64,000 nucleotides of DNA from a bacterium. Its GTDB lineage: Bacteria; Myxococcota_A; UBA9160; UBA4427. Below the pieces are notes generated by a model that saw nothing but the letters and a program-made list of their open reading frames with translations, made no database searches and was not told the origin of the DNA. Positions 2,532-55,727 of this stretch are shown piece after piece. Made by a program: the position numbers and the translations under genes. Every line of letters begins with the position of its first letter. Position 1 is the stretch's first letter. Location of the stretch: contig JANSYR010000006.1 in assembly GCA_024742285.1 (NCBI GenBank), forward strand, positions 1 through 64,000, in the 5' to 3' direction.

Positions 2532-2533
2532 CG

Positions 2534-3454
2534 ATGGCTGATGCGACGAGAATGACGACCGACGTGGTCGCCGGCGAAGGCGACGACCGCAAGGCCGTCT
2601 ACATCACCTGCGGCACGATCGTCGCGCTCTTCGGGATCTACTTCCCGATCCTGCGCAACATGGTCCACCACTGGAGCGTGGTCGAGGACTACCAGCACGG
2701 GTTCATCATCGCCCCCCTCGACGTGTACTTCGCCTATCAGAAGCGATGGGAGCTCGAGGACGCCAAGATCGAGGGCTCCTGGCTCGGCCTGATCCCGCTG
2801 GTGATCGGCGTGACGAGCCTGATGATCGGCCGGCTCGGCACCGAGCTGATGACGATGCGCAGCGGCTTCCTGTTCACGCTGATCGGACTCGTGCTCCTGC
2901 TCCTCGGCAAGGAGATCTTCCGGATCCTCGCGTTCCCGCTCTTCTTCCTCTTCCTGATGGTGCCCCTTCCCCAGTCACTGGTGAACACCGTCGCCTTCCC
3001 GCTCCAGCTGATCGCCGCGAAGTCGGCGGTCCTGAGCCTGCAGGAGATCGGGATCCCGGCCCTCGTCGAGGGCAACATCATCCACCTCGCCCATACCGAG
3101 CTCTTCGTCCACGAGGCGTGCAGCGGCCTGCGCAGCCTGATGGCCCTCATCACCCTGGGCGTCGTCTTCGCCTATTTCTTCAAGCCGGGCGTTCTCTGGG
3201 TCCAGCTCGTCCTCGTCGCCTCGACGATCCCGATCGCGATCTTCGTGAACGCGTTCCGGGTCGCGCTCACGGGCTATCTGGCGCACCACGACGAGAGCCT
3301 CGCCTCGGGCACGATCCACGACCTCCAGGGCGTGTTCACCTTCGTGCTCGCATTCATCATCCTGCTGGGCGAAGGTCGGCTGATCGAATTCCTCACGGGT
3401 CTCCGCGATCGCAGCCGCGACGCGGGGGATGCCGCAGGAGATGCCCCGGCATGA
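2534..3454 (+). CDS. exosortase (PEP-CTERM sorting transpeptidase)
   Basis: This is an inner-membrane cysteine transpeptidase that recognises C-terminal PEP-CTERM signals on exported proteins. The 306-residue product has about eight hydrophobic segments. The family catalytic triad is visible: C196 in VHEACSGLRSL, R242 in NAFRVALTGYL and H262 in GTIHDLQGVF. I chose the ATG two bases after the wecB stop, since longer upstream versions only overlap wecB. Its stop overlaps the next start as ATGA. Candidate substrates in this window are the PEP-CTERM protein at 54.9-55.7 kb and the internal VPEP motif of the giant protein beside it. Confidence 0.95.
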   Translation: MADATRMTTDVVAGEGDDRKAVYITCGTIVALFGIYFPILRNMVHHWSVVEDYQHGFIIAPLDVYFAYQKRWELEDAKIEGSWLGLIPLVIGVTSLMIGRLGTELMTMRSGFLFTLIGLVLLLLGKEIFRILAFPLFFLFLMVPLPQSLVNTVAFPLQLIAAKSAVLSLQEIGIPALVEGNIIHLAHTELFVHEACSGLRSLMALITLGVVFAYFFKPGVLWVQLVLVASTIPIAIFVNAFRVALTGYLAHHDESLASGTIHDLQGVFTFVLAFIILLGEGRLIEFLTGLRDRSRDAGDAAGDAPA

Positions 3455-30941: not shown

Positions 30942-30966
30942 GATGTGCATACCGGGTATGCGCATC
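30942..30966. promoter_or_regulatory. 25 bp imperfect palindrome over the kinase start
   Basis: GATGTGCATACC-G-GGTATGCGCATC: two 12 bp arms with one mismatch, the inner 7 bp perfect (30,947-30,961). It overlaps both possible kinase start codons (ATG 30,943 and ATG 30,958). It could be an operator for a dimeric repressor or an mRNA hairpin that hides the start. Function is inferred. Confidence 0.5.
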
Positions 30967-33429
30967 CTCGAACGAGCAATCCGTGCCTTCGCCATCGGCG
31001 CGACCGGTCTCCTCCCGGCGGCGCCCGCTTCCGCGGGCGCCTCCACGGAGGGGCTCGGCCGCTCGCTGGCGACGCTGGCCGACGGCGCTCGATTCGAGGC
31101 GCTCATCGGCCCGCTCGAAGCCGCCTACCACGCGTGGGTCGCCTCCTCGAACGGGGCGCGCGAGATCGACGCGTTCCTCGCGAGCGATGCCGGCGCCCTC
31201 ACCGCCCTCGGCGCGGTGGTCGTCCTCGCGCTCGTGCTCGGCCAGATCCAGCGACGCCGCCGGCGCGACGTCGGGGACCTCACGCTCCATCTCCTCTTTC
31301 CGGACGGCGTCGACGGTGACTTCGAGATCCGCCTCGTCCGAAGAAACCGGCGCCGCGACGACCGACGGCCGATCCGACGCGTCGGCGTCCGCCGCGAGAC
31401 CCAGTTCGACGCCGTCCCGCCCGGCGCGTGGCGCGTCGAGATCGAAGGCCGGCTCCACGCGGCGCAGAGTCGCGCCGAGCTCGCCCGGATCGAGGAGTCC
31501 GTCGACGTCGAGATCGCCATCGGCGCCTGCACCGAGCTCGAGCACGCGCTCCCCCCCGTCGAAGCCCCGATCGAGTTCCGCGTCCACTGGGACCGCCAGC
31601 CGGCCCACGGCGTCGGACTCGGCCTCGCTTCGCGCCCCGCGACGGTCCGTTATGCGACACAGGTCGGTGTCGTCCGCTCGACCCTGCCCCTCGGTGCACA
31701 CGCGATCGTGGTCGGAGCCGGCGACCGGATCGTCGAGCGCCCCTGCCAGGTCACGAGCTACGAGCCGAGCGTCGTCTCGATCGACCTCGCCGATGCCGAC
31801 GGGCTCGTCTTCAAGGGCTGCCCTCCGGCGGTCGGCGCGTTCCTGCAAGGGGACCTCGCCCAGGCCGCGCAGGCCCTGGAACGCGACGGCCAGTCGGGCA
31901 CGGCGTCTCTCCTCCTCGCGCGCCTGCACCAGGCCCAGGGTCGGACCGAAGCCGCGGCCGAGCAGCTCGAGAACGCCGGCCGCGATCGCGAGGCGGCCCA
32001 GCTCCGCAAGGAGATCTCGGACTTCGACCGCGCCGCGGCGCTCTTCGAGAACGCCGGCGAGCTGCGCAGCGCCGCGGAGATGTACGACGCCGCCGGGGCC
32101 TTCGACCAGGCCGCCCGGGCGTATGCGACGCTCGAGGACTGGACGGCGGCGGCTCGCTGCTACGAGTCGGCCGGCGATTCCGCCGGGCTGATCGGTGCCC
32201 TCGAAGGTCAGGGCGAGATCCTGCGCGCCGCGGCGCTCGCGACCGAGTCCGGCGATCGCGCTCGCGCGATCCGGCTCCTCCAACAGGTCGGCCAGGGCGA
32301 CGAGGCCTTCGGACGCGCCGGAGAGCTCCTGGCCCTCGCCTACGAACAGGAAGGTCACCTCGACCTCGCCGCGAACCAGATCGAACGCTGCCTCCAGGCC
32401 CTCGCGCCGGGCGAGTTCGCCCCGGCCCTCGAGGTCCACCTCGCCGAGCTCCTCGAGGACTCCGGCGAAGTCCCCCGCGCCCTCGAAGTCTTGGGCGCCC
32501 TGCGCGACCGCGACCCGACCTATCCCCGCGTCGCCGGGAAGATCGAGGCCCTACGCAAGAAGATGAACGCGGCGAGCCGCCGCGATTCCGGCGCCACGTT
32601 CACCCCGCCGGCAGGCGCCACCGCCTTCGTCGCCGAAGAGCGCTACGAGATCCTCGAAGAGGTCGGCCGCGGCGGCATGGGACTCGTCTACAAGGCCCGC
32701 GATCGACGGCTCGGCCGCACGGTCGCGCTCAAGCGCATGCCCGAGAACCTGCGCGACCACCCGACCGCCGTGCAGCTCTTCCTGACCGAAGCGCAGGCGG
32801 CGGCGCGCATGAACCATCCGAACATCGTGACGCTCTACGATGCGGACCAGGAGAACGGCAGCTTCTTCATCACGATGGAGCTCCTCGAAGGCCTGCCGCT
32901 CAACAGCATCCTCAAGGAGCGCGGGCGATTCGGGCCGCGCGACACGGCGCGCCTCGGGCTCCAGGTCTGCGCCGGCCTCCAGTACGCCCACGACGCCGGC
33001 ATCGTCCACCGCGACATCAAGACCTCGAACCTCTTCATCACGCGCGACCGCGTGCTGAAGATCATGGACTTCGGCCTCGCGAAGATCCTCGAAGCGGTCC
33101 GCATGGACGGCTCGACCGTGATCGCCGGCACGCCCTTCTACATGGCGCCCGAACAGGCGAGCGGCAACGTCGCCGACGGCCGCACGGACCTCTACGCCCT
33201 CGGCGTGACCCTCTTCGAGCTCTCGACCGGGCGGCTTCCGTTCAGGGAAGGCGACGTCCAGGCGAAACATCGCGAAGCGCCTCGTCCGGACCCGACGCAA
33301 GGCATCCCGGACTACCCGGCGAAGCTCGCGATCCTGATCCAGCGCCTCATGTCGGTCGAGCCGGACGGACGACCGGCAAACGCGGCGGAGGTCGCGGCCG
33401 CCCTCACGGAGATCGTGGAGGAGCGCTAG
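30943..33429 (+). CDS. membrane-anchored Ser/Thr protein kinase with TPR-like repeats
   Basis: 828 residues. The N-terminus has a signal-like stretch (AFAIGATGLLPAAPASAGA) and a transmembrane helix near residues 82-102 (LTALGAVVVLALVLGQ), followed by a beta-rich region. About 250 residues of TPR-like helical repeats (roughly 310-540) follow. A complete Hanks-type kinase domain occupies about 567-825: VGRGGMGLVYKA, catalytic Lys in TVALKRM, HRDIKTSNL, DFGLAK and GTPFYMAPEQ. The kinase is C-terminal, so the topology places it in the cytoplasm after the TM helix. Start at ATG 30,943 or 30,958. Confidence 0.92.
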   Translation: MCIPGMRILERAIRAFAIGATGLLPAAPASAGASTEGLGRSLATLADGARFEALIGPLEAAYHAWVASSNGAREIDAFLASDAGALTALGAVVVLALVLGQIQRRRRRDVGDLTLHLLFPDGVDGDFEIRLVRRNRRRDDRRPIRRVGVRRETQFDAVPPGAWRVEIEGRLHAAQSRAELARIEESVDVEIAIGACTELEHALPPVEAPIEFRVHWDRQPAHGVGLGLASRPATVRYATQVGVVRSTLPLGAHAIVVGAGDRIVERPCQVTSYEPSVVSIDLADADGLVFKGCPPAVGAFLQGDLAQAAQALERDGQSGTASLLLARLHQAQGRTEAAAEQLENAGRDREAAQLRKEISDFDRAAALFENAGELRSAAEMYDAAGAFDQAARAYATLEDWTAAARCYESAGDSAGLIGALEGQGEILRAAALATESGDRARAIRLLQQVGQGDEAFGRAGELLALAYEQEGHLDLAANQIERCLQALAPGEFAPALEVHLAELLEDSGEVPRALEVLGALRDRDPTYPRVAGKIEALRKKMNAASRRDSGATFTPPAGATAFVAEERYEILEEVGRGGMGLVYKARDRRLGRTVALKRMPENLRDHPTAVQLFLTEAQAAARMNHPNIVTLYDADQENGSFFITMELLEGLPLNSILKERGRFGPRDTARLGLQVCAGLQYAHDAGIVHRDIKTSNLFITRDRVLKIMDFGLAKILEAVRMDGSTVIAGTPFYMAPEQASGNVADGRTDLYALGVTLFELSTGRLPFREGDVQAKHREAPRPDPTQGIPDYPAKLAILIQRLMSVEPDGRPANAAEVAAALTEIVEER

Positions 33430-41319: not shown

Positions 41320-41670
41320 CTAATCGCCCCCGAAATGGCCGTTTCCAGTCGAAGCGTACAGCGGAAGACCGCAAGTCATGCAGTTGCGGGTCCACGGATT
41401 CGAGGCGCCGATGCCGGGAACGCTACTAGCTGTGTGGTAGCGCTCTCCACATCGTGGGCACTCGCTAAGCACGATCCTAATTCCACAGACGAGAACCCAT
41501 AGGGCTCCACCCACACCAAGAACCATAGTCGCCAGATCCGAACCTGATATCGCAAGCACCAACCCTGTCAAAGGCAACCAAAGCGCCGCCGACCACCAGA
41601 ATCGTCGGCGAGCAGTGCGAATCAGCTCCAAACCAGCCCGAAAACTCGTAGCCAGATCGCTCACGGACAC
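41320..41670 (-). CDS. zinc-ribbon membrane protein downstream of RHS gene
   Basis: 116 residues: two hydrophobic helices (SAALWLPLTGLVLAISG and MVLGVGGALWVLVCGIRIVL), then a C-terminal four-Cys ribbon with CPRCG and NCMTCGLPLY. Its start overlaps the RHS stop region by 10 bp, so it is translationally coupled to the RHS protein. That position is where immunity genes follow polymorphic RHS toxins, but the RHS protein here shows no recognisable toxin tip, so I leave function open. Confidence 0.72.
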   Translation of the reverse strand: MSVSDLATSFRAGLELIRTARRRFWWSAALWLPLTGLVLAISGSDLATMVLGVGGALWVLVCGIRIVLSECPRCGERYHTASSVPGIGASNPWTRNCMTCGLPLYASTGNGHFGGD

Positions 41671-44600
41671 TGCCCCGCCAACGAATCGTCGTCATTGTCA
41701 CCAAAGAGATCCTCTATCGCGCGCTTCCAGTTAAAGAGGGGCTCGACGATCGTAGTCGATGGAATGACATGTGCTTCGACAGGGGTGCCGGCCCCCAACC
41801 CGAATTGAACCTCGACACCGAACTCGTCGGAGCCACTGCGGGAGTTGAAATCGACGACGTCGACTCCAGCTACCGCTCCCTCGCCTGCAGACGCTCCCGT
41901 TACGGTCGAATCGCCTTCTAGATCGAAAATCGTGTCCGCGCTTGAAAGACCGCCCACAATGCCAGTGGATGCGCCGGCACCGATTTCTGCCCCTACGCCG
42001 TAGGTAAGTGCTATTCCGACGTTTCCGTCGTCGTCAGCAACGAGCGCAAGCTGCGCCTGTCCGCCCGCGCCTGCGCCGCCCGCCGTAAACTGCCCCACGC
42101 TAAATGTAAAGAGCCCCATCGGGTCAAGCGCCTGACTAGGACTGTTCCTTGCATACTGATAAAGGTGCAGACCTCCACGTTGACCAATCGGATCCGCACT
42201 AACGTACCGAGCTGAACTGGGGTCGTAGTATCGATGACGGTTGTAGTGAAGTCCGCTCTCGGAGTCGAAGTACTGACCTGGGAATCGGAGGTTCATCGAG
42301 ACATTAACTGAGTCCCCGTCAGGGTTCTCATCGACAATGGCACTACCGAACGAGCGATAGTCACTGGACCAGACAGGTTCTTCCTGCGAATCGACAAGAA
42401 TGGCCGGAGTTCCAAGATGATCCGGATGAACGGCATAGAGTTCCGCATTGGCCGCAACGCCATCCTCGACAAACAGAGGTGCCAGCGCTGCAGAATCATA
42501 GACGTAGCGCTTGACCGAAGCGCCAGTGCCGTCAAGCTCTTCGATCATCTGCTCCCCGAGCCAAAGGAACCAAGTGGTGTCTCCGCCGGCAACGCTCTTC
42601 TGGTATCGGCGCCCGAACGGGTCATGTCGATACGTCGCGATTGACGGACCGGCCTGCGTAGATCTGATCTCGGTTAGGGAACTCTCTGCGTCCCACTCGA
42701 AGTCGAGAACGCCGTTGTCGTCGAGGTTTCCATTGTCGTCATAGCTGACAGTCGCAGCAGAACCCGGAACGGTCGTGTACTGATCTAGAGAGTTGGCTAC
42801 GAATGCGCCGCCCCGATTCCCCGCAGCATCGTACTGGAAGCTCTCCGGCGATCCGGTCGCGGCATGCGCAGAAGGGAAGGAGGCCGCTGTGAGCTGCCGA
42901 GCCCCATCGTGGCCGTACGTCAGAATATCCGAGGCCGGTGACGGGCTCGCGTCGAACGCGATGCTCTCGACGACTCCACGCGCGTCCAACTCATAGTCCC
43001 GATAGAGCAGGATCGTCTCGCCAGGCAGCCCGTGCTGCGCGTAGACCGCGATCAAGTCTACGCGACCCGCGGCGTCAAAAACCCAGTCGTGGCGTACTCC
43101 AGAGCTGAAGTCGCGATAATCGCGGCGCCCACGTCCATCGAACACTTGCGTCATGAGCGCCGCGCTCGCGGACTCCGCTCGGACCTGCGAGAGCCTCTCC
43201 ATCGCATCATGTGCAAGGAAGAAGTCCTCGAGATTGCTGAATATGAGCTCGGAGCGATTGCCAGCACCGTCGATGACCTGCTCGACGGTACGCGAGCCCG
43301 TCGGTGCGCCCGAGCCGAGGAAGGTCACCGTCTCGCTGGTCCGCTCATCCCGTTCGTTGTAGCCGAATACGATCGAGATGCCCGAATCCCCTGCGGTCTG
43401 CATGCGACCTGCACCATCGTAAGTGAAACTGTGAGTCTCGCCTCCAGCGATCGTACGGAAGGTGTTCCGTCGCCGATTGTCGAATACGTAATCGACTTCG
43501 ACGCCACTCCGGGTCGTGACTAGATCGAGGTCGCCATTCATGTCCCACTCGAAGGACTCTTCTTTGTCGTCCGTAGACGAGTTGGGATCTCCGTCATGCA
43601 GGACCGAGCTCAACCGATCGAAGGGATCGTACCCGTATCCGGTCCTGTTTCCGCGGCCGTCTACGACATCGTCAAGCGTGCCGTTCGCGTGATAGCCGAA
43701 AGTCGTCGGCCCGAGAGTGGTTCCCGCCGGAGGAGTAGAGGTGTACAGAAGGTCGCGCTCGTCGAATAGGAACGTCCAGCGATAATCAGAAGCATCCTCC
43801 ACCCCGGTTCGATTGCCGTTGCCGTCGTAGAAGTACTGAATCTCATTGTTGGCCAGCCCGTTGCGTTCGAACTCAACTCGGTCCCTTTCGTCGTACTCCC
43901 ATGTCAATGACTCGAGAATCACGGCGGAGTCGAGCATTGCGCGTTGTCTCAAGTTCCCGTTCGCATCGTAGTACCGCTCTTCAGTCTGAGAGGCGAAGGG
44001 CGCGGGTCTCGTAATGGTCGCCAAGCGGTCAAGCTCGTCGTATAGGAGCTGCGTGCGGTGCCCGTTGTCTGTGGTGATTGCGGTCGGACGCCCGAGCTCG
44101 TCAGGATCGTAAGACGTTGTCGCCTCGTCGGTGGCCGACCCGTACGCGCGAATCACTCGCGCCAGATATCGAGTATCCGGCGGCAAGGAAGGGTTTCCCG
44201 GATCCGGCGTGTACTCGTACCGCGTCGTGTTCCCGTTCGAGTCCTCGAAGGACTCGAGCTGGCCTCGAGAATTGATGACGATGGTCGCGGCGTCGTTGTT
44301 GCCGCTAATGAGCGGATACTGGATCGATGTCAAATTGTAGGTCGTCGGGTCATATACGAACGTCGTTGTCTGGGTCTCGGGCGTGATGATCGTCTCTATT
44401 TGCTGGTAGGGCGTCGTGTACTGGAATGAAGTGCGCAAAGGCGGGTCTGTACTCCCAGGTTTGGGCCGCTCCTCGACGTAGACCAGGTTGCCACGCTCTT
44501 CCACGGGCCCAGAGACGAGAGGCCACTCCCAGTGCGTCGAGTTACTCTCGGGGTACGTAACATCAGTTAGACGACCTAGCGAATCGTAGAGATACGCTGT

Positions 44601-45935
44601 CTCGTACTTCGTACCAACCTGTTCACCCGTGCGAACTCCACGCGTAACAACTCGCTCGAACAGAACTCTGAAGTTGCTTGGATCGTATTCGAACTCCCAG
44701 TCCGTAGCGTTTCCGTCTGTGAGCACGGTGGTATTCGGAATCGACGTGTAGTCGAGCGAAACTCCTGCCCCGTCACCATAGGTCTGAGACGTGACACGCC
44801 CCTCTTCGTCGTAGACCTGCGACAAGAAAAGAGTGCTAGAGCCCTGCAAAGCAGGGCTTGTAACTTCGGTCACGTTGTGGAGATCATGCGGATCGGTATA
44901 CGCGAAGCTTGCGACGGCGGGCTCGACAACGACCTGCGTCGCCCCGCCAGGTAACGTCTCGAACGTCCGGACCGGGGGGCTGGACACCGTCGTCAAATTG
45001 CCCAACGAGTCGTGTCCGTACGACCAGATACGGCCCGTCCAGTCCTCAATCTCGTCCAGTCGTCCAGTGACGGGATCGTATCGAAGATCTACGGCACGAT
45101 CGTTCGCTGCAGCCTGGTCCGGGAACTTCACGCGAATCAACCGATAGTCGCGACCAATGAGCGTCTTGAAATCCTCCAGGTTGGCCCCTGGCGGGGCTGT
45201 CTCCTCGATTGCGGACAGCATTCGATCCGTGATTGAAAACTTCGGACGGCCGTAGAGCGGGAACTTCGCAGGCACACCCGGCGCCCCGTCCCACTCATAC
45301 AGGACCTCGTTGCCGTGACGGTCTGCTTTCCGAGTAAGCAATCCATGCGAATCGAAGTCGTAGGTTCGACCATCTGGCTTCGTCATCGTGTAGCTGCCGT
45401 CACCGTTCTGAACGATGCGCTCGTCTCCGCGAGTGGGCGAGTACCACTCGTTCGCGAAGCGGAAATACTCACGCGTCGTGCAGTTTCCGAAGGAAACGAT
45501 CAGCTTCCCCTCTGTTGTCGGCGAAACCGGCTCTCGAGCCTGCCGCAAGCGAACATTGGCCGCAAAATCCCACCCGTAGCCCAGCGGAGAGTCGTACGGC
45601 GAACCCGATCGGTAGCTGTGCCGAAGATCGATCGAGATCTCTGGTCGCGCGCCCGGAATAAAAAGTCCGGGTACATGCTGGTCTTCCGGCGTCAGAATGA
45701 ACTCACCTGTGACGACGTCAACCGGATCCGTCTTTCCTGGGCAGTCGTTCTGGTTGTCCGGATCGATCTCACCCTCTTCGTCTTCCTCTTCCTCAGCCGT
45801 CTCTCCACCTGTAAAGTTGTAGTTGTCTGAAAAGGCAGGCGGCACCAAGAAGCAACCGAAAACCACGAGCATGGCAAGAAACGATCCTACGAGCTTCAGG
45901 CGATCGAGCGTGGATTCCCTCGGGCTACGAGTCAT
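41661..45935 (-). CDS. exported RHS/YD-repeat protein
   Basis: 1,424 residues. Signal peptide (LVGSFLAMLVVFGCFLVPPAFS), an acidic Glu-rich patch, an RHS N-terminal domain (DPVDVVTGEFILTPEDQHVPG, YRSGSPYDSPLGYGWDF), a long array of YD repeats (YDxxGRL and YDANGNL-like units), and the RHS-associated core (FPGQYFDSESGLHYNRHRYYDPSSARYVSADPIG ending LDPMGL, split here only for description). About 140 residues follow, glycine-rich and without a known toxin motif, ending GQCP. A strong GGAGGTGA precedes the ATG. Such shells enclose or display C-terminal domains. Confidence 0.93.
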   Translation of the reverse strand: MTRSPRESTLDRLKLVGSFLAMLVVFGCFLVPPAFSDNYNFTGGETAEEEEDEEGEIDPDNQNDCPGKTDPVDVVTGEFILTPEDQHVPGLFIPGARPEISIDLRHSYRSGSPYDSPLGYGWDFAANVRLRQAREPVSPTTEGKLIVSFGNCTTREYFRFANEWYSPTRGDERIVQNGDGSYTMTKPDGRTYDFDSHGLLTRKADRHGNEVLYEWDGAPGVPAKFPLYGRPKFSITDRMLSAIEETAPPGANLEDFKTLIGRDYRLIRVKFPDQAAANDRAVDLRYDPVTGRLDEIEDWTGRIWSYGHDSLGNLTTVSSPPVRTFETLPGGATQVVVEPAVASFAYTDPHDLHNVTEVTSPALQGSSTLFLSQVYDEEGRVTSQTYGDGAGVSLDYTSIPNTTVLTDGNATDWEFEYDPSNFRVLFERVVTRGVRTGEQVGTKYETAYLYDSLGRLTDVTYPESNSTHWEWPLVSGPVEERGNLVYVEERPKPGSTDPPLRTSFQYTTPYQQIETIITPETQTTTFVYDPTTYNLTSIQYPLISGNNDAATIVINSRGQLESFEDSNGNTTRYEYTPDPGNPSLPPDTRYLARVIRAYGSATDEATTSYDPDELGRPTAITTDNGHRTQLLYDELDRLATITRPAPFASQTEERYYDANGNLRQRAMLDSAVILESLTWEYDERDRVEFERNGLANNEIQYFYDGNGNRTGVEDASDYRWTFLFDERDLLYTSTPPAGTTLGPTTFGYHANGTLDDVVDGRGNRTGYGYDPFDRLSSVLHDGDPNSSTDDKEESFEWDMNGDLDLVTTRSGVEVDYVFDNRRRNTFRTIAGGETHSFTYDGAGRMQTAGDSGISIVFGYNERDERTSETVTFLGSGAPTGSRTVEQVIDGAGNRSELIFSNLEDFFLAHDAMERLSQVRAESASAALMTQVFDGRGRRDYRDFSSGVRHDWVFDAAGRVDLIAVYAQHGLPGETILLYRDYELDARGVVESIAFDASPSPASDILTYGHDGARQLTAASFPSAHAATGSPESFQYDAAGNRGGAFVANSLDQYTTVPGSAATVSYDDNGNLDDNGVLDFEWDAESSLTEIRSTQAGPSIATYRHDPFGRRYQKSVAGGDTTWFLWLGEQMIEELDGTGASVKRYVYDSAALAPLFVEDGVAANAELYAVHPDHLGTPAILVDSQEEPVWSSDYRSFGSAIVDENPDGDSVNVSMNLRFPGQYFDSESGLHYNRHRYYDPSSARYVSADPIGQRGGLHLYQYARNSPSQALDPMGLFTFSVGQFTAGGAGAGGQAQLALVADDDGNVGIALTYGVGAEIGAGASTGIVGGLSSADTIFDLEGDSTVTGASAGEGAVAGVDVVDFNSRSGSDEFGVEVQFGLGAGTPVEAHVIPSTTIVEPLFNWKRAIEDLFGDNDDDSLAGQCP

Positions 45936-46752
45936 CGCGGTTCACCTCCGACCGAACCCGCAACCGCCCCTTCATCACCTGCAGGTCTGTCCCATCCCAT
46001 TCGCAGCTGCCGAACCTGAAGTCGCCTGATATGTCCGCAATGAAAGAGACCGTTCTCGTCTCCCCTTCCGGAAGCTCAACTCCGACTTCATAGTCCGGCT
46101 GGACGAAGTAGTGATTGCCCTTCGTCGAGGTCAGCTCGATCTCCAAACGATCCCCCGGCTCCACACTCAGATCGTTCGGCTCGAAGTACCACTCACTCGC
46201 CGTCATCGTAATCCGGTGGGTCACTCCGGTCGGCTCAGCTCGCTGCCGGAAGTTCTCCCCGAGCAGCACCTCGGCATCCGCCTCCCCGATCTGTGCCGAG
46301 GCGTCAATGTCGGTCAGCCCGGTCTCAGGGCCAGCAACCGGAAGGCCCGACGCGCGCCATCCGTTGATTCCGCGCTCCTGCATTAGTGCGACATCGGATA
46401 TCCCGAGGCCTCGAAGCGCTTTCACGGCCATGAAACCTCGAAAGTCCATGTTGCAGTACGGGATTACGAGCGCTGACCGATCGATCTCATCGACTCTCGC
46501 CGCGAACTCGCGCTCCGGAATGTTCACCGCACCAGGAATATGTCCTTCGGCGTACTCTTGAGGCTCTCGCACATCAACGAACTGGATCTTCTCCCCCGCC
46601 TGAATCCGCTCGACGATCGCTTGGGGCGAGAGCAGCGGAGTTCGACTCACGCCGCCCACATCGGAGGCGTGCGCCACCGCGGAGAGGAGAAGCAATGCGG
46701 AGGAGATCGCTGCGATCGCCGCACGATGCTTGGATTGGCCGATTCGGATCAT
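45925..46752 (-). CDS. exported rhodanese-cupredoxin fusion protein
   Basis: 275 residues. Signal peptide (AAIAAISSALLLLSAVAHA). Rhodanese domain about 36-138 with the VDVREPQEYAEGHIPGAVNIP signature and active-site Cys100 in YCNMDFRG. Then a cupredoxin-like beta-domain about 175-268 with SEWYFEPNDLSVEPGDRLEIEL and candidate metal ligands H214, C250 (FGSCEWDG) and M260; the usual second His is not evident. A periplasmic sulfur-transfer or redox role is suggested. It overlaps its upstream neighbour (stop/ATG) and the RHS start, so it is embedded in the operon. Confidence 0.88.
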   Translation of the reverse strand: MIRIGQSKHRAAIAAISSALLLLSAVAHASDVGGVSRTPLLSPQAIVERIQAGEKIQFVDVREPQEYAEGHIPGAVNIPEREFAARVDEIDRSALVIPYCNMDFRGFMAVKALRGLGISDVALMQERGINGWRASGLPVAGPETGLTDIDASAQIGEADAEVLLGENFRQRAEPTGVTHRITMTASEWYFEPNDLSVEPGDRLEIELTSTKGNHYFVQPDYEVGVELPEGETRTVSFIADISGDFRFGSCEWDGTDLQVMKGRLRVRSEVNRDDS

Positions 46753-47924
46753 GAAGAACTCCCCGACGACTCGAGAATGAAGGGCACCGTGACGGCGCCC
46801 CCGTGATCGTCGTAAGTGAGAACGTTGACGGTCAAGAAGTGCAGACCAGGCGACAAGTCATCCACCGCCAGGGTGAAATTGAATGGGCTTGACCCCTCCT
46901 CCTCTTCGAAGAGGAAAACCGAGTCAAGAAAAAACATCACCTCGAATCCTCCCGATACCAGGTTGGGAAGATCCTCAGGATCGAGCGTGACCCGCACTGT
47001 CGCCGGCCCCGAAATCTTCGCGACGCCGCCAGACGAGAGGCCATCCGGGTCAACAAGCTCCACCGCGAATCTAGGGTCGTGACAGTCGCGCGGCGCGTGC
47101 AGCGCATGCCTAAATCCGCTTCGAAAAGCCGATGTCTCGCCCTGCCGCGGCGAACGCTCGTCGTGTGCCGCAGGAACGACAATCGCGTTGCGGCCCAAGG
47201 CATATGCATGCATGGAGAAGCGAACGCGCGAGTCGCCGGACATGTCCAACACACCCGAGCTGTCGGTTCCGTCCCAGACCACCTCATACTCACCTGCGGC
47301 CTGCGGCTGCCAATCGTGAATCGTCCGCAGCAGCGGCAGTCCCTGCAGCATGGCGCGCAAGCGCACACGTGCCGGCTCCGGCAGCGCATAGGAGACGCGA
47401 CCGGACGCATCGTCGAAGGTAAACCGCATCGGCAGAACCTCTTCGCCCCCATCGACTGGATCGGCCCCATAGGCCGCAACGAGCTGTCCATTCTGAGCCA
47501 GCACACCGATCGCGTAGAAGTAGACGCCGGGACCGACCATCGCGCCGCCTTGGTCGGCGCCATCCCACTCGGCGAGCTGGCGCCCCTTCTCCCTTACATC
47601 GAGCTCCATCAGCCTTATCGCGGTCCCGCTCTCGTCATAGATGACGATGACGGGCTTGCCCTTTGCACGCAGGGTGAACGAAAGCTCATACGTGGCGCCA
47701 TCACCCGGCACAAAGAGAAATGGGCGCCCCGAGACGCGTCCGATCCGCTGACCACCAACCTGATTCCAGGAAGCGTCGAATCTGGAGAGTGCTTCCGAAG
47801 CTTCGGGTAACTCCTTCACGGCGCGAGACGCACACCCTGCGACAATGGTCGCGAGCAGTAGGGCGACGATGGCCACCAACATCCGCTCTTCGCCTCGCTC
47901 GCCGCGCGCGTTTTTCCTTGTCAC
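46749..47924 (-). CDS. lipoprotein with FlgD-like Ig repeats
   Basis: About 391 residues from a GTG at 47,922-47,924 whose GTGA overlaps the upstream stop; ATG 47,882 is the alternative. The lipobox is LLATIVAGC. The mature part holds beta-rich modules with the FlgD-Ig pattern (WDGADQGGAMVGPGVYFYAI and WDGTDSSGVLDMSGDSRVRF) also found in the giant protein of this operon. It has a C-terminal Ig-like domain (LSPGLHFLTVNVLTYDDHGG). Probably outer-membrane anchored and part of the same surface assembly. Confidence 0.82.
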   Translation of the reverse strand: MTRKNARGERGEERMLVAIVALLLATIVAGCASRAVKELPEASEALSRFDASWNQVGGQRIGRVSGRPFLFVPGDGATYELSFTLRAKGKPVIVIYDESGTAIRLMELDVREKGRQLAEWDGADQGGAMVGPGVYFYAIGVLAQNGQLVAAYGADPVDGGEEVLPMRFTFDDASGRVSYALPEPARVRLRAMLQGLPLLRTIHDWQPQAAGEYEVVWDGTDSSGVLDMSGDSRVRFSMHAYALGRNAIVVPAAHDERSPRQGETSAFRSGFRHALHAPRDCHDPRFAVELVDPDGLSSGGVAKISGPATVRVTLDPEDLPNLVSGGFEVMFFLDSVFLFEEEEGSSPFNFTLAVDDLSPGLHFLTVNVLTYDDHGGAVTVPFILESSGSSS

Positions 47925-48817
47925 GGCTGAACCTCGAGAATCGTCCATTCGGGATCCAACGCGACGATGTCACCCCCCCAGAAAGGCTGCTGGTGCTCGC
48001 CGGCCCTGGACATCTTCCACACATGGGGCTGACCGTCTTGCACCCGGACATACGCGATCTGCTCGCCAGTAGGAGACCAGGACGGCGACATCTCCGCGTC
48101 CGTCGAATCCGTAAGGCGACGAACGAATCCGAACCTCGTTCTGCGCCAGATATCGAAGTTCCCTGCGGCCGACGACGAGAAGAGCAGACCGGTCCCACTA
48201 GGTGCCGCTGCCGGCTCCAGAGCCCGAGAGTGCTCTTCCATGATTGCTTCGGGCTTCGGGTCGCTTCCCAAGGAAACTCGAAAAAGCTCGGCGCGACTGC
48301 CCGCGCTCGCGCTGGAGTACACGAGCTCCCGACCGCTCGGAGCCCACGAGTAGTGACGAATAAAGCCAGAAGAGGGCGTAACCAGGCGAGGCGACGCGTC
48401 GTCCGAGTCGAGAATGACGATCGCACTTCGATCATCGACATCCGTCCGAATCCGAGCGAGCGCAAGTCGACGTCCCGTCGGCGACGGCCTCGGCGTCAGT
48501 GCGGGCCAGAGGTCGGGCCGAAACGGCGCTTCGCCTCCGCTTTGGAGGTCGAGAACAAACAGCCGGTCGTTCCCGTCGCGGAAGAACACCCGTCGCCCAT
48601 CAGACGCCGGACGCCTCTTGTCGAAGCCGGACGTCGTTAGCCTCCGATGGGTGCGGTCTCGGACGTCGAATACCCAGACCTGCCAATACTGCATATCAAG
48701 CCGGCTGTAGATGATCGCCTCACGACCACTCTCCGCCGGACGATTTGCATGGCCACCCGCGCAACCGAATGCGAGGATGCCGATAACCAGGGCAACGCTC
48801 GACGTTCCGCGCATCAC
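47921..48817 (-). CDS. TolB/WD40-like beta-propeller lipoprotein
   Basis: 298 residues; lipoprotein signal (VALVIGILAFGC). Repeated propeller blades: SRLDMQYWQVWVFDVRDRTHRRL, RRPASDGRRVFFRDG, PRPSPTGRRLALARI, YSWAPSGRELVYSS and SPSWSPTGEQIAYVRV, each with the S-P-x-G-x-x-hydrophobic pattern of TolB-type propellers. Likely an anchored periplasmic scaffold. It is followed by the FlgD-like lipoprotein with overlapping stop/start and preceded, three bases away, by the giant protein gene. Confidence 0.85.
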   Translation of the reverse strand: MMRGTSSVALVIGILAFGCAGGHANRPAESGREAIIYSRLDMQYWQVWVFDVRDRTHRRLTTSGFDKRRPASDGRRVFFRDGNDRLFVLDLQSGGEAPFRPDLWPALTPRPSPTGRRLALARIRTDVDDRSAIVILDSDDASPRLVTPSSGFIRHYSWAPSGRELVYSSASAGSRAELFRVSLGSDPKPEAIMEEHSRALEPAAAPSGTGLLFSSSAAGNFDIWRRTRFGFVRRLTDSTDAEMSPSWSPTGEQIAYVRVQDGQPHVWKMSRAGEHQQPFWGGDIVALDPEWTILEVQP

Positions 48818-48820
48818 GGG

Positions 48821-51800
48821 TCAGGGGCAGTTGCAAGCGGCGGAGCCGCCAAGCGGTTCAGCCGGGATACGTGTGTCTACGCGAAATACGAGGTCCTCGG
48901 CAACGAATTCGCCCGTCACCTGATCCTCGATCTCGACCCGAACGCGGTACTTGCCGATCAGTGTTGTCACGGCCCCGCTCTCGTCCAACCCGTCCCACTC
49001 GAGAAAATGCGACCCGGCCGCAAAGGATGTATTCGACTCGAGCGTCCGAATGAGCTGATTGTTGGGGCTATAGACATCGACGTCGACGGTCGCCGGCCGC
49101 AACAGCTCGAAGAAGATCCGCGTCGACTGGCCAAAGACGGGCCGAAAAAGGTAGGGATTGAGGGCGAGCCGACGGATCTCCGCCGGGGGAGTCCTCACGA
49201 TTACGCTGTCCCTTTCGAGAGGCTCCGGGACTTCGAGGTATACGGTGTATGCGAGACCCGACTCCGAGAATTGACGATTCTCGTCGCGCGCGTTCCACAC
49301 CAAGGAGACAGGGCCGCTCGGGACGACCTCGTTTCCAAGGAGGGTCACGACACGATCGGGCGTCGGCGACGCCGTCGCACAGTCGCTACTCACCTGCACC
49401 TGAGGAGGATCGGGGTTCTGGGGGTCATCACCCGGTTCAAAGAGGCAGACCTTGACCGTGTGCCTGCCGGGATAATTCATCGTGTAGTCGATCTCGAGCC
49501 ACTCGTTCATGAACGTCGAGATCGGTTCCGGCATACCGCTCAGCGAGCTCCCACCATTCTCGAATCCGTTGAATTGGGCCGGGAATTGCCACAACGGCGG
49601 ATCGCCAATCGCGCGATCGTTGCCATCGTTGAGCACGACACTTCGACCGCTGGCGTCTGTTGCGGAGATCTCGACAAAGTACGCACCATTCGGCGCCACG
49701 GAGACCGGCACTTCGTCGGTGGTCCCGTCCCAAACTACCGAGTGGGGAGTGCCTCCAGTCCTTGACTCGTTGTCGACAAGCAGCTTTGTCGTCGCGCCGA
49801 GACCGGACGGTTTTAGCTCGACGGTGACGTCCGCATCGGCGGACAACTCGTAGGTGATCTGCACCTGCTCGCCAGCAAGCGGATCGATCACTTCTCGATC
49901 GAACTCCAACGAAACCACTTCAAGACGATCGACCGTCACGTCGACTCCAGTCTCGCTGGTGTTGCCGACCGCATCCGAGACCTGGAGTACGATCCGGATC
50001 GTGTCCTCTTCGGAGTATCTGGCTTCCGTCCCGTTGTCGCTTGGCAGAAATCCAAGAAGCCCGCTCTGCACATTCCCCGTATCGTTCGCGAACTCGTCGA
50101 AGTCCACTGGATCAAGGCCCGCTCCCCAGAGCAGCCGATAGTCTCCTGGATGATCGTCGTCGATGGTTCCGCGCACTTCCACGGGGCCGTAGTTCACGAT
50201 CGGCGTGAGACTGTTCGGCGTCTCGATGGCCGCCACCGGCGGCGTCAGATCAACGACGACCGAACCACCTGAGGCTACGTACTGCGCGCCATCAAGACTC
50301 GCCGTGAGTCGAAAGTCATAGATTCCGTCGGAAATGGTCCCCGAGGACACCTGTCCGGACCATTCTCCAACCGCAGAACGTCCACTCCCGGTGAACTGAT
50401 TGACCACGGAGCCACCCGACAAGACGTCGAGAGTCCAGCTTGCATCGTCCAGACTCAAACCTGCTTCGATCGACACCTTGTCGAACGCGCCGTCGTTGTT
50501 AGGAGAGAAAACCGCCAAGGACGCGGCCGGAGCCGACGCGTGCAGAACGCGCACCGTCCTGTCGGTAACGGCGGTTCCACCTGGCGAGTCCACTTCGAGT
50601 CTCACCGTGTAGATCCCATTGATCTCAGCCGACGCGTCCCACGAAACGAGCTGGCCGTTTGCCGGGACCGAAGCGATATCGCATGCGGGCGGATCGCCGG
50701 GTTGGCCACCCGCGGGCGATTCGCAAATCGTCGAAAACGCGGACTCCGCGGGGCTGTAGCCGTAAGCCTGTTTGATGCGATAGGCGGTCGCGCCAGCCCC
50801 TGCGGCTTCGCCCACGATCGCGATCGGACCCGCGGCCGCAACGCCGAGTTCAGCTGGCGCCGTGAGGCGGGCCACAGGCAGCGCGGAGTTGATCTCGACA
50901 GTTCCGACAACATCCGGCGCCGCAGCTACTGCGGCTCCAGCGCGATCTGCACTCAGAGTTACTTCGTACACACCGTCGGCGAGTGCGTTTTCCGGCGAGC
51001 CACCATCACCGCCCGACCACGGCTGCGAGACTGATGAAGCAGTCTCAGAGAAGGTCCGGACCACTTGCCCGCCCGTGTTCCGAACGTCGATCGTCCAGTC
51101 TACGGACTCGCTGAACTCGGCGGAGAAAACCGTCTCCGAACTCAGCCCGACAGACGGAAACTCGAGCGGTCCAAATGCCGCTGAGTCGACGAAGGGCTCC
51201 GTGCTCCCGATATTCACCGGGCTAGCCAGCCACGGATTCGAGAGGGTACCCGGAGCCTGAGGCGGACCAGGGTCTACTTCGATGTCGCCTGGAGCGGGAC
51301 CACCCGCAGCTCCCCACCAGTTGGCTCGCGAGTCGATGAGGACCGGGGATTCGGTAAAGAGGGCCGCGTCGAAGTTCCCCGAGAGGTTGTTCCCACGAAG
51401 TAGCGCCGGTTCGCCGTTTCCTCGAACCGCAATCGCATACTGGAAATTCGAGATCTCGTTGCCGACGATCAGGGGGTTGCAGTCGAAGGTGATCCCTCTC
51501 GGGCTTGCGCTCCCGCCCGACGCTCCGGGACCAACTATGGTATTGGCGCGAATCAGCGGGCGCGCTTCCGGCTCGTCGCACACGATGCCGTCGTCAGCGT
51601 CGCCGGTAAGCGTGATCGTGTTTCGCTCAATCGTGGGAGACGCGTGGTCCACCCTGACACCGTCTGCGCCGGCGAGCGACAGTACGATCTCGCTGTCCAG
51701 TAGGTAGAGATCGCTCGTCGACGTCGCCGCTGAGAAATCGTAGTGGACAGCACGCGCGACACTGCCTCCCCCGATTCCTTCGACTCGGATCCATTGGAGC

Positions 51801-54800
51801 ATGGAGCCAGATATCGCTCCATCTTGGTATCGAATCCCGCGCCAGGCTGACGTAATCGGACCGAAGACGATCTCGTTCCCGCTCGCGCCTACCGCGGTGA
51901 TCGTGCCCTTGAACGAAGCCGCCTCACTTCCTGCGCCACCAATGTCGATAAACTCGCCGCCACCTACGCGGATCTCAGAGCCCGCCTCAATCCCGAACAA
52001 GACAGGGCTCGACGCTCCGACCAGAAGGCCGTCTGGAAGGTGATAGCGGAACTGTTTCCACAATCCGCTTCTCGACAGGTTCGGTGGATCGACACCCTGG
52101 GAATCACTCGCTTCTACGTAGCTCGACGAGTTCGCACCGTTGATCAAGGAACCCTCCATCAAGCGGGCCACAAGATTCGGATGAACTGAGATCTGGCGAG
52201 CAGACGAGTACCCGTCGAAAATGACGTTCTCAAAGACCGCGGCGGCATTATCATCCGGATAGTAGACACCGCTTTCCAGCGTCGAATTCAGGATCGACGC
52301 CACTCCGCCATCTTCGCCTTCAACCGCGAATTGCGACGAACCCGGCGAGATCGTCCATCCGTCGAGCCGCGGCTGCCCGCCGACGACCTCAATGCCTGCG
52401 TAGGCTCCGCTCTGAATCGTCCCGTTCCGTAGTGATATCGATGACGAGACATCGACGAGACGAAGGCTCGAAGTAACAAACTCCTGCGTCTGACCAACTC
52501 CCACATCCTTGATCACAACATGGTCGAGCTCGGTAGCGGGTAGCGCGGACTCGAGAATACGAATTCCCCGCCAACCCGGTTCGCCGTCGTCCAAGAACTC
52601 CTCGAATACGATCGGCTCTGCGGCTGTTCCCCTGGCGACAAGGCCACCGGGCTTCTGCAGGTTCGAACTGCCGACTTCGAGCTCGCGGTTGTGATCGAAC
52701 TGAAGCACGGTCCCCGGAGCGAGCGTCAACACCGGCTCATCGTCGCCCGTGATGTAGAGCTCCACGTCAATTCGGTAGTTGAATTTGGGCCAGGCGCCGC
52801 TTCGACGGACGTAGCTGCTCCTCACCTCAACGTGACTATCCACCGCCTCGCCGGTAATCGTCGAAGTGTTCATGATGTCGGCAACAAGCGAGGCATCGAT
52901 CCGAAGAGGCGAATGGCTTCCGTAGTTCTCAAACGTCAGATCGCGATAGAGGGCGCCGTCCGCGTCGTGCTCCACGCGGATCCCGCCGGACGCGACAAGG
53001 TCGGTCAGGGTGATATTCGGCAGCCCAACCGTTCGAATGCTGTGATAACGGGGAGAGCCACCAGACCAGGTCGGTACAACAATCGACCAGTGATCAATCT
53101 CTGGCGCGCCGCCTTCAACCAGAATACCGTCGTCGAGGGTGTTGGATATCGAGCCATGGCGCAGGGGTACTTCGGCGCCGAGGTCGCGGAGTTCCACTGC
53201 CGCGAGCCCTCCAGCGCCGGCGTCGGAGATCGACACGTAGTCGAAGCGCCCCCCGGAGAGCACGTTCTCGTCAAAGAGAAGACCATCCCAGGCGCCGGGC
53301 GCCGAGGACGCGCCACGCATCTGGATCTCTGCAGCCTCGACTCCAAGGGCGTTGATTCCGCCGGACTCGTGGGGCGTCGAGATCGAGAGAGAGGCGCCAC
53401 CTGTGAAGACGACTTCGACGCCCGGCTCGATTGCTAGAACTGCGCCCGCCCGCACCGAACGGTCTCCTGAAACGGTGTAGGGGCTATTGAGAAGAGTCCA
53501 GGTGGTCGACGCGACGACGTCCGTATTTATGCTCACAGGCCCGGTGCTCGGCGCCGGTACGCCAGATCTTTCGACCGAGTCTGCAGTCTCGCTTCCTTCG
53601 ATCGCGCGAACCACGTAGTAGTACGGCTGGCCGTTTACGACTGCCGCGTCGTCGAAGCTCGTCCATGTCGTGGGTGACGGAGTGATGAGCGAATAGGGCC
53701 CGCCCGGAACATCAGCGCGATAGACGTTATACCCCGTGACAAGCGAGGAAGGGACCGGCTCCCAATCCAACACGAGCCTCGAGTCACCAACGTATACGTC
53801 CAGATCGCTGGGCGGACCGGCCGAACCCAAGAAATTTGAAACCGCCGGGCGACAAACGGGCTCTGGCCACGGCGACACCCTTTCCGCAAGCGCATCCGCC
53901 AGGAGGTCGAGATCGTCCTGCAAACAATCATCTGGGGTCCCAACCAGACTGCACTTGCTCGGCGAGGGCAGGCTGGCGAGCTGCCCTCCGACGAAGCGCC
54001 TCAGAAGCGCAAGATCACGAACATCGACGTCGCCATCGTTGTCGACGTCTCCGCATTGGCAAGCATCGCCGATGCCATCCGGTTCGCGGATCCCAGCGCC
54101 GCTGGAGTCCTCCTGCATCGGATTTGCCACATAGGGACAGTTATCCCGGTAGTTTCGGATGCCGTCGTCGTCCCAGTCGAGGTCGTCCGCCGCGGTCGCT
54201 CGGCTCCCCGGAATCATCACCAAAAGAAACGCGAACAGAACGGACTTCCGAGCCACTCGCGACCGACCCACCAAGAGGACCATCGCGAGAAACGCAGTCG
54301 CGATCCCGACCGTGAGCTTCGGCTCTGGGACTCGTGCGATCGCAGCGGGGGCAACGTCTCGAATCTCGAGCGCAGCGTCCACGATCTCGGCTCGCTCGAT
54401 TCGGACCGTCCCGCCCTCCGAGATTGCCCCCGACGTAACGGTCACCTCTCCGGCGCGAACAGGTGGAAGACTGCCTGATACTGCGGACAGACCGTTTACT
54501 CGCAGGCGCCGCGACGTGAAGTCGTACTCTGTCTCAGATCCGAGCGTCTCGTCGAAATCAATAAACTCAACGCCGTCGCTGGTCACTAGGATGAGATCGA
54601 ACGCGCAAGTTTCAGCGCCATCGCCGTCAACGCACGGCGTACCGATCGCACTCGCCTGACTGGGTAGCTGCCACCCTGGGTACGTCTCCGAGGCGGCGTA
54701 GATGAACAGAGGTGACGACGCGTCCGGATCAACAGCGACTGGCCCGTCGTTGCCCTCCTCTCCGTTGTCCGTAGGGCTGGCAAACACTCTCGGCTGCGTC

Positions 54801-54904
54801 TGTGCCGTCGCGTCTCCGGGGACGAAAAGACGCGCAACGCTCAGCAGAGATACGACGGCGAAAACCGCCATTGCCAACTGGCACCGCCGAAGACCGCTAG
54901 TCAT
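48821..54904 (-). CDS. giant exported beta-helix/FlgD-Ig protein with internal PEP-CTERM motif
   Basis: About 2,027 residues. A signal peptide (MAVFAVVSLLSVARL) leads a first domain of about 190 residues that ends in VPEP (192-195), a hydrophobic helix (197-213) and RSR: a complete PEP-CTERM sorting tag. The chain does not stop but continues through a second hydrophobic segment (LFAFLLVMIPG, 223-233) into a thrombospondin type-3/dockerin-like Asp-rich region (DWDDDGIRNYRDNCPYV, GDVDNDGDVDVRDLALL). Next come an FnIII domain, a long right-handed parallel beta-helix, several FlgD-like Ig domains and a terminal CNCP. Start at ATG 54,904 (GGGAGGGG upstream), overlapping the preceding gene. Confidence 0.9.
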   Translation of the reverse strand: MTSGLRRCQLAMAVFAVVSLLSVARLFVPGDATAQTQPRVFASPTDNGEEGNDGPVAVDPDASSPLFIYAASETYPGWQLPSQASAIGTPCVDGDGAETCAFDLILVTSDGVEFIDFDETLGSETEYDFTSRRLRVNGLSAVSGSLPPVRAGEVTVTSGAISEGGTVRIERAEIVDAALEIRDVAPAAIARVPEPKLTVGIATAFLAMVLLVGRSRVARKSVLFAFLLVMIPGSRATAADDLDWDDDGIRNYRDNCPYVANPMQEDSSGAGIREPDGIGDACQCGDVDNDGDVDVRDLALLRRFVGGQLASLPSPSKCSLVGTPDDCLQDDLDLLADALAERVSPWPEPVCRPAVSNFLGSAGPPSDLDVYVGDSRLVLDWEPVPSSLVTGYNVYRADVPGGPYSLITPSPTTWTSFDDAAVVNGQPYYYVVRAIEGSETADSVERSGVPAPSTGPVSINTDVVASTTWTLLNSPYTVSGDRSVRAGAVLAIEPGVEVVFTGGASLSISTPHESGGINALGVEAAEIQMRGASSAPGAWDGLLFDENVLSGGRFDYVSISDAGAGGLAAVELRDLGAEVPLRHGSISNTLDDGILVEGGAPEIDHWSIVVPTWSGGSPRYHSIRTVGLPNITLTDLVASGGIRVEHDADGALYRDLTFENYGSHSPLRIDASLVADIMNTSTITGEAVDSHVEVRSSYVRRSGAWPKFNYRIDVELYITGDDEPVLTLAPGTVLQFDHNRELEVGSSNLQKPGGLVARGTAAEPIVFEEFLDDGEPGWRGIRILESALPATELDHVVIKDVGVGQTQEFVTSSLRLVDVSSSISLRNGTIQSGAYAGIEVVGGQPRLDGWTISPGSSQFAVEGEDGGVASILNSTLESGVYYPDDNAAAVFENVIFDGYSSARQISVHPNLVARLMEGSLINGANSSSYVEASDSQGVDPPNLSRSGLWKQFRYHLPDGLLVGASSPVLFGIEAGSEIRVGGGEFIDIGGAGSEAASFKGTITAVGASGNEIVFGPITSAWRGIRYQDGAISGSMLQWIRVEGIGGGSVARAVHYDFSAATSTSDLYLLDSEIVLSLAGADGVRVDHASPTIERNTITLTGDADDGIVCDEPEARPLIRANTIVGPGASGGSASPRGITFDCNPLIVGNEISNFQYAIAVRGNGEPALLRGNNLSGNFDAALFTESPVLIDSRANWWGAAGGPAPGDIEVDPGPPQAPGTLSNPWLASPVNIGSTEPFVDSAAFGPLEFPSVGLSSETVFSAEFSESVDWTIDVRNTGGQVVRTFSETASSVSQPWSGGDGGSPENALADGVYEVTLSADRAGAAVAAAPDVVGTVEINSALPVARLTAPAELGVAAAGPIAIVGEAAGAGATAYRIKQAYGYSPAESAFSTICESPAGGQPGDPPACDIASVPANGQLVSWDASAEINGIYTVRLEVDSPGGTAVTDRTVRVLHASAPAASLAVFSPNNDGAFDKVSIEAGLSLDDASWTLDVLSGGSVVNQFTGSGRSAVGEWSGQVSSGTISDGIYDFRLTASLDGAQYVASGGSVVVDLTPPVAAIETPNSLTPIVNYGPVEVRGTIDDDHPGDYRLLWGAGLDPVDFDEFANDTGNVQSGLLGFLPSDNGTEARYSEEDTIRIVLQVSDAVGNTSETGVDVTVDRLEVVSLEFDREVIDPLAGEQVQITYELSADADVTVELKPSGLGATTKLLVDNESRTGGTPHSVVWDGTTDEVPVSVAPNGAYFVEISATDASGRSVVLNDGNDRAIGDPPLWQFPAQFNGFENGGSSLSGMPEPISTFMNEWLEIDYTMNYPGRHTVKVCLFEPGDDPQNPDPPQVQVSSDCATASPTPDRVVTLLGNEVVPSGPVSLVWNARDENRQFSESGLAYTVYLEVPEPLERDSVIVRTPPAEIRRLALNPYLFRPVFGQSTRIFFELLRPATVDVDVYSPNNQLIRTLESNTSFAAGSHFLEWDGLDESGAVTTLIGKYRVRVEIEDQVTGEFVAEDLVFRVDTRIPAEPLGGSAACNCP

Positions 54905-55727
54905 TACCCCTCCCATTCTCACCCGGAGCTTGCTGGAAGTTCTTGAGTTCGAGACCGGTCGTGTTGGTCCGGAAACGGCCGGACGGAGCGCTTGGCTCCG
55001 AGGTCGCCGCGCGCACCCCTGAGAGAAGGGCTAGCCCAACGAGCATAAGTGCGGCCGGAGAAGGCTCGGGAACCCAGGTCACGTCAAGCCGGTCGAACGC
55101 GATACCGGCTGAACCGGGAGCGGGATGTTCAAAACCGAACTGGACCCAGGAAATAGAGTCCCAGAGGCGCGTGTCTCCGACGTCGACGACCGAGTTGAAG
55201 TCGATCGAGCCAATCGTCGTGATCGATAGATCGCCGCCACGATCAGAGCGAATGTAGACCTCACCGACGGAACCAGTCTCGAGAAGCTCGATATCCACCG
55301 AATTCGCGTTGAAGGGGCCTTCATCCCGACGGCCAATCCGCAACCACGAAAACGTTCGACTGGCAGCGGGTGACGTCGTTCGCAAGTAGTACTCAACGTC
55401 GCCATCGCCGTCGGGATCTCGACGACTCACACTTGAACCAGAGCCCTGGGCCCTCAGATTCGAGAATCGGTCGTCTTCCGTATACGGCCTGCCTCCCGGG
55501 TCGTTGTCGCCGAACTCGAACACGGCAGACTCTCCGCTGTTCGCGGACAGGAGGAACGCAGCGAGTACCCCCGCAAGAACACTGGTTCGACTACCGCTCG
55601 ACAGACTCGGGCCGACTGCGCAACAGGCACTGGAGACAGGTCTGCCGAGAGCACGAAGCAAAGTCTCAATGAGAATGAGACGCGGATTCAATTCGATTGC
55701 CCTCAATCTCAAGTCTCGGCTCGTCAC
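54897..55727 (-). CDS. PEP-CTERM protein
   Basis: About 276 residues if the GTG at 55,725-55,727 is used; the true start is uncertain and may be nearer the signal peptide (SVLAGVLAAFLLSANSGESA). The secreted domain is Asp/Ser-rich and beta-type (FNSVVDVGDTRLWDSISWVQF). The C-terminal tag is VPEPSPAALMLVGLALLSGVRAA, the PEP-CTERM motif for exosortase, but about 35 residues follow it instead of the usual few basic ones. Its stop lies inside the start of the giant gene (ATGACTAG). First gene of the surface operon. Confidence 0.78.
   Translation of the reverse strand: MTSRDLRLRAIELNPRLILIETLLRALGRPVSSACCAVGPSLSSGSRTSVLAGVLAAFLLSANSGESAVFEFGDNDPGGRPYTEDDRFSNLRAQGSGSSVSRRDPDGDGDVEYYLRTTSPAASRTFSWLRIGRRDEGPFNANSVDIELLETGSVGEVYIRSDRGGDLSITTIGSIDFNSVVDVGDTRLWDSISWVQFGFEHPAPGSAGIAFDRLDVTWVPEPSPAALMLVGLALLSGVRAATSEPSAPSGRFRTNTTGLELKNFQQAPGENGRGND

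Follow-up and report, generated by a model that had tools for sequence, protein, structure and literature searches.

Internal Sorting Tags and Polyproteins in Known Systems

PEP-CTERM sorting tags are by definition treated as C-terminal. In the study of Haft (2006), they lie at the extreme C-terminus, and the long-tailed ones are considered as possibly non-functional (PMC1569441). Processing at an internal tag is nevertheless known in archaea, where the archaeosortase ArtA cuts HVO_0405 of Haloferax volcanii, a gene-fusion product, at its central tag (PMC7157517). It has also been proposed for MXAN_5598 of Myxococcus xanthus, which carries an internal MYXO-CTERM tag (Guo 2025, PMC11980579).

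The locus described here lies in a stretch of 64,000 nucleotides (hereafter the window; positions 1 to 64,000 of contig JANSYR010000006.1, assembly GCA_024742285.1) from a bacterium of the Myxococcota_A lineage. Its fused gene belongs to a family which resembles HVO_0405 in that two once-independent genes have been fused around a central tripartite sorting signal (PMC7157517, PMC9263693). At that signal, a member of the exosortase/archaeosortase superfamily cleaves HVO_0405, as we infer for the products of the present family. HVO_0405 is archaeal, carries a PGF motif and has been described as strain-specific, whereas the present family is bacterial, carries a PEP motif, includes 28 open reading frames (ORFs) spread over two families and 15 genomes (window genome included), and combines a second signal peptide with cohesin and dockerin-cargo halves. 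MXAN_5598 is likewise a fusion of two genes with a central sorting tag and proposed processing, but it involves another tag and another enzyme (a myxosortase of the CPBP family), is a single example, and comes with no mention of cohesin or dockerin. The PEP motif, helix and basic cluster of the window tag, as well as the presence of an exosortase in the genome, are those of the PEP-CTERM/exosortase system, in contrast to the tag position, which is 1,836 residues away from the stop codon and not at the C-terminal end (PMC1569441).

The cohesin and dockerin folds are shared with the cellulosome and with non-cellulosomal cohesin–dockerin pairs. The differences lie in the PEP-CTERM-type tag, in the presence of receptor and ligand in one reading frame, and in a cargo which is no evident cellulase. 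In Bradyrhizobium, signal peptidase divides the cytochrome b/c1 polyprotein FbcH at an internal signal sequence. This bacterial protein shares the internal-signal polyprotein design proposed here, but belongs to a respiratory complex and has no sorting tag. Literature searches for PEP-CTERM with cohesin and dockerin, or for exosortase and PEP-CTERM with dockerin, found nothing; exosortase with cohesin returned only an archaeal review, in which each is treated separately. The recurrent bacterial variant with an internal tag is therefore new, whereas internal-tag processing as such is known for archaeosortase and proposed for myxosortase.

The Fused Gene and Its Internal Tag

The fused ORF extends over positions 48821–54922 of the minus strand, with 2,033 codons counted from the GTG at 54922. 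The probable start is the ATG at 54904, from which residues are numbered here. A first signal peptide (MTSGLRRCQLAMAVFAVVSLLSVARLFVPGDATA, 54803–54904, minus strand) is recognized in the sequence, and residues 5–26 are helical in the AlphaFold2 (AF2) model. The V192-P193-E194-P195 motif starts at 54331 and opens an internal PEP-CTERM-like tag (54245–54331, minus strand), composed of VPEP, a hydrophobic helix and RSRVARK, which is assigned from the sequence and from relatives, its matrix score being weak. After VPEP, the chain runs through KLTVGIATAFLAMVLLVGRSRVARK, then SVLFAFLLVMIPGSRATA, then ADDLDWDDDG, in an open frame without a stop. Residues 192–220 (VPEPKLTVGIATAFLAMVLLVGRSRVARK) are indeed directly followed by SVLFAFLLVMIPGSRATA|ADDLDWDDDG, an in-frame second signal-peptide-like segment whose h-region ends with an AxA site (SVLFAFLLVMIPGSRATA|A, 54191–54244, minus strand); both A236 and A238 are kept in fused relatives. 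The initial annotation had described a VPEP–helix–RSR motif inside a giant protein, which is present with matching residue numbers and coordinates, and a chain continuing past it through a second signal-like segment, which is borne out by the open frame. Its mention of a complete PEP-CTERM tag fits the presence of a PEP motif, hydrophobic helix and basic cluster, but overstates the window copy, since searches of the window protein with the Pfam and NCBIfam tag models (PF07589 and TIGR02595) both left the tag unreported.

The tag was also scored with a position-specific matrix derived from 64 tags in the window genome. The window tag scores −1.9, compared with a canonical range of 18.1–61.9 for those 64 tags. 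It is the top-scoring segment of its own protein (the next one scores −13.4), and it is unremarkable in a six-frame scan of the window, where the eighth-best segment scores −1.3. Because it is among the two weakest of the 28 internal tags, processing can be assumed with less confidence for the window copy than for the family as a whole. Taken alone, the window tag looks borderline, and the case for a real tag comes from sequence comparison with its relatives.

A candidate processing enzyme, an exosortase of the EpsH family, is encoded in the window itself (2294–3454, plus strand; PF09721, E 2.4e-65; TIGR02602, 181.6 bits, above cut-off), and shows the expected cysteine motif, EACSGLRSL. The window genome has four exosortase-family genes, this one included, and some 70 PEP-CTERM matches. 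An exosortase is found in every genome with a fusion, and exosortases are frequent in fusion-free genomes too.

The Modules Flanking the Tag

The part before the tag (54335–54802, minus strand) is predicted to fold as a cohesin module. Its AF2 model, built from 15 aligned sequences, has a pLDDT of 84.6. The best match to known structures by Foldseek is 2jh2 (E 4e-6), and rows 1–31 in VIA-align are all cohesins, with Z-scores from 12.1 (2vo8) to 9.5 over model residues 34–196, which corresponds to the cohesin beta-sandwich fold. A PF00963 search of the window protein gave no match, and a sister fusion gave a weak one (20.9 bits, cut-off 24.1). Comparison of the cohesin profile with the PDB by sequence gave no meaningful match either, and the cohesin assignment therefore rests on the fold.

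Beyond the second signal peptide, a thrombospondin type 3 (TSP3) repeat (54113–54184, minus strand; PF02412, 28.4 bits, cut-off 25) is followed by a dockerin module (53885–54055, minus strand). The PF00404 scores of the latter, 20.1–22.2 bits, fall just below the cut-off of 22.9, which is exceeded in two sister fusions encoded by this genome, C12 and C31. The dockerin profile (A3) matches the solved dockerins 1ohz_B (E 2e-6) and 2ccl_B across both repeats. In addition, all 31 Foldseek matches of the dockerin model, whose pLDDT is only 68, come from dockerin or cohesin–dockerin entries. The module thus has the two calcium-binding F-hand repeats of a type I dockerin. Further on, the cargo includes a right-handed beta-helix stretch (51356–51661, minus strand; PF13229, 24.5 bits, cut-off 25.9), a part which looks FN3-like by eye, and a C-terminal FlgD-like Ig domain (48929–49129, minus strand; PF13860, 52 bits). 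For the cargo (about residues 366–1237), the search for close homologues returned nothing beyond a short FN3-like stretch. With cohesin before the tag and TSP3/dockerin after it, the order of the chain is therefore cohesin–PEP-CTERM tag–signal peptide–dockerin/cargo. The identity of these flanks and the recurrence of the architecture are additions to the initial annotation.

A Recurrent Architecture

Fused and separate homologues were both returned by one protein search of related genomes. The cargos of the 28 internal-tag ORFs are diverse. Twelve are of the FG-GAP type (tested on L120 and L152, the others by eye), nine are GDSL-type lipases (PF00657 tested on L065, the others by alignment), and three share an uncharacterised cargo starting with FEYF. 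Single cases assigned by eye carry a HELGH metalloprotease-like motif, a HEIMH motif, or a caspase/C25-like cargo, the remaining type being the window's own. The dockerin lies on the same ORF in 22 of the 28, with weak evidence in one more (L152), and on the next ORF in five. These five (L119, L124, L126, L129 and L130) are FG-GAP fusions with the dockerin on its own downstream ORF, so that their chain is split at a second point. The TSP3–dockerin module may also be repeated, as in L080 (G042:C41), where it ends each of three consecutive stretches on one short contig.

The window genome alone carries four fusions (window, C31, C27 and C12), on which three of its four PF00404 matches and its only PF00963 match fall. 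Among the 70 PF07589 matches examined in this genome, 69 are C-terminal, the distance between the start of the tag and the stop never exceeding 48 residues. The sole internal one belongs to the C12 cohesin–dockerin fusion, at 18.8 bits for a cut-off of 20.7. The named relatives are mainly metagenome assemblies of Myxococcota and 'Deltaproteobacteria'. A search with the cohesin profile (E 1e-10) in 377 genomes across the phylum gave no match outside the class, within the limits of the profile's sensitivity.

Conservation of the Junction

The PEP motif is intact in 28/28 internal-tag ORFs. In an alignment of ten fused sequences, which share 29–33% identity with the window chain, P193, E194, P195 and A238 do not vary, in contrast to the drifting helices. 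This conservation goes against an ordinary interdomain helix lacking a conserved VPEP, which the initial annotation had considered as a refutation of its reading. Across the 28 ORFs, the segment between the two helices contains 2–8 Lys/Arg and 0–1 Asp/Glu, and a second hydrophobic segment lies past this basic cluster, with an AxA-type site in most cases. The internal tag scores above 5 in 26 of the 28 and ranks first among the tag-like segments of its protein in all of them. The dN/dS ratio at the junction ranges from 0.11 to 0.65 in seven of eight close pairs, which indicates that the junction is translated; it is 1.02 in the remaining pair (L065/L069).

Separate Genes and the Sister Group

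The same cohesin family includes 15 separate genes, each with an ordinary C-terminal tag. A dockerin module is found within 4 kb of such a cohesin-tag gene in 10 of the 15, always on the same strand. In L074, the dockerin partner bears a CotH kinase domain, and the L075 partner is similar. The parts are thus independent genes in relatives, with the tag between them in the fusion, as in HVO_0405. The fusion of two genes across tag and signal, one of the two options initially proposed, is supported by these separate neighbouring genes. On the cohesin tree, whose deep resolution is weak and where the window row sits on a long branch, the fused/separate label switches at least five times, at least two of them on well-supported branches; the fusion has therefore been gained or lost repeatedly. 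A separate-gene version is also seen within the window genome itself. In L262 (G000:C9, 1771–7094), an exosortase lies near two pairs, one per strand, each consisting of a dockerin-like gene followed by a PEP-CTERM gene which is cohesin-like by eye.

A sister group, in another family of the same class and outside the order, has cohesin, TSP3 and dockerin together in a single mature chain, with neither a tag nor a second signal. A covalent cohesin–dockerin link is therefore tolerated. As this group shows, the two modules go together in the lineage, yet their separation is not required. Loss of exosortase was considered as a cause of these tagless chains and rejected, since 7 of the 11 genomes concerned have one. 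The sister-group proteins L263–L269 are secreted cohesin–TSP3–dockerin chains of about 300–430 codons without a tag, which could self-polymerise.

A Polyprotein Model and Its Alternatives

The recurrence of the architecture in many related genomes suggests that a single chain is synthesised and then divided in two in the course of export. A cohesin-tag gene has been fused to a secreted dockerin-cargo gene, with retention of the tag. The probable product, in our view, is a polyprotein with two processing sites, PEP for exosortase and AxA for signal peptidase I. The cohesin would be exported through the first signal peptide, until transfer is halted by the tag helix, leaving the basic cluster in the cytoplasm. 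This cluster would double as the n-region of the second signal, re-initiating export of the dockerin cargo. Exosortase would then cut at PEP and the cohesin would be anchored at the surface, while signal peptidase I would cut after AxA and free the dockerin cargo, which could bind its sibling cohesin. Directly observed are the fusion itself, the cohesin and dockerin modules recognized by fold, the conservation of PEP and the basic cluster in all ORFs and of AxA in the majority, and the presence of exosortase genes in the genome. Internal cleavage by exosortase at the tag, the other option of the initial annotation, is the best reading of these sequences, and the two options, which are not exclusive, are probably both true. 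By analogy, the cutting of HVO_0405 by ArtA at a central site counts in favour of a polyprotein. Counting against it are the weak window tag, the tagless chains of the sister group (most with exosortases), the frequency of exosortases in fusion-free genomes, the L065/L069 ratio, and the view of long-tailed tags in Haft (2006). A broader proposal can be put forward tentatively, with slightly less than even confidence: a recurrent class of bacterial polyproteins, with cohesin receptor and dockerin ligand in equal amounts, split by exosortase and signal peptidase at a shared tag–signal hinge, whose surface-anchored cohesin captures the sibling cargo.

The two hydrophobic segments could instead form a two-helix anchor, an uncut membrane hairpin with cohesin and dockerin cargo outside and tethered together. 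Adjacent helices and a basic loop suit such a hairpin well, covalent cohesin–dockerin chains are known in the sister group, and the window tag is weak. A hairpin requires neither PEP nor AxA, however, whereas PEP never varies and AxA is retained in most cases despite the drift of the helices, and the same cohesin bears ordinary C-terminal tags in its separate-gene relatives; we regard this anchor as unlikely. A fossil fusion, in which the tag is a relic of the old C-terminus and signal peptidase I, acting at the second signal site, makes the only remaining cut, would fit the low score of the window tag and the opinion of Haft (2006) on atypically placed tags. It looks quite improbable in view of the scores of the other internal tags (26/28 above 5, 28/28 best in their own protein) and of a PEP motif kept in every one of them despite deep divergence.

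Two further explanations bear on the reading frame itself. Internal initiation at the second signal peptide would give two products from one ORF, the read-through form being incidental. An ATG or GTG does occur near the second signal in some loci, but no start codon in the junction is shared across the 28 loci, six of which have none, Shine-Dalgarno-like motifs are sporadic, and no stop codon ends the first gene, which makes this mode of expression very improbable. The sequencing frameshift initially envisaged, or an assembly error joining two genes, could be suspected because the relatives that bear a name come from metagenome assemblies. Besides the window ORF, 27 others carry such a fusion in an uninterrupted frame (28 from 15 assemblies, the window's included), with purifying selection across the in-frame junction in most close pairs. 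An artefact is thus refuted at the family level, and its probability for the window is very low.

Implications and Neighbouring Genes

Internal tags, earlier set aside as probably non-functional, appear here as conserved and repeatedly formed in bacteria. Such a chain would also provide a built-in reporter, since cleavage would give two pieces of very unequal size, as HVO_0405 does for archaeosortase. The partners of non-cellulosomal cohesins and dockerins are usually unknown. In this family, they gain an obvious partner candidate in the same reading frame, and the tag suggests a way of holding the cohesin at the cell surface.

Just upstream, a gene at 54897–55727 (minus strand) overlaps the start of the fused gene. 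Of all tag-like segments in the window, the strongest (VPEPSPAALMLVGLALLSGVRA, matrix score 31.5) lies in this gene and is followed by a hydrophilic tail of ~34 residues; a frameshift or another non-terminal tag is possible. After the fused gene, tightly packed genes on the same strand (41661–48817, minus strand) encode a TolB-like propeller, a FlgD-type Ig protein, a rhodanese and cupredoxin-like protein, and an RHS protein, and probably form one operon. Elsewhere in the window, a long ORF (30943–33429, plus strand) has a C-terminal Ser/Thr kinase domain preceded by an N-terminal region of about 560 codons.
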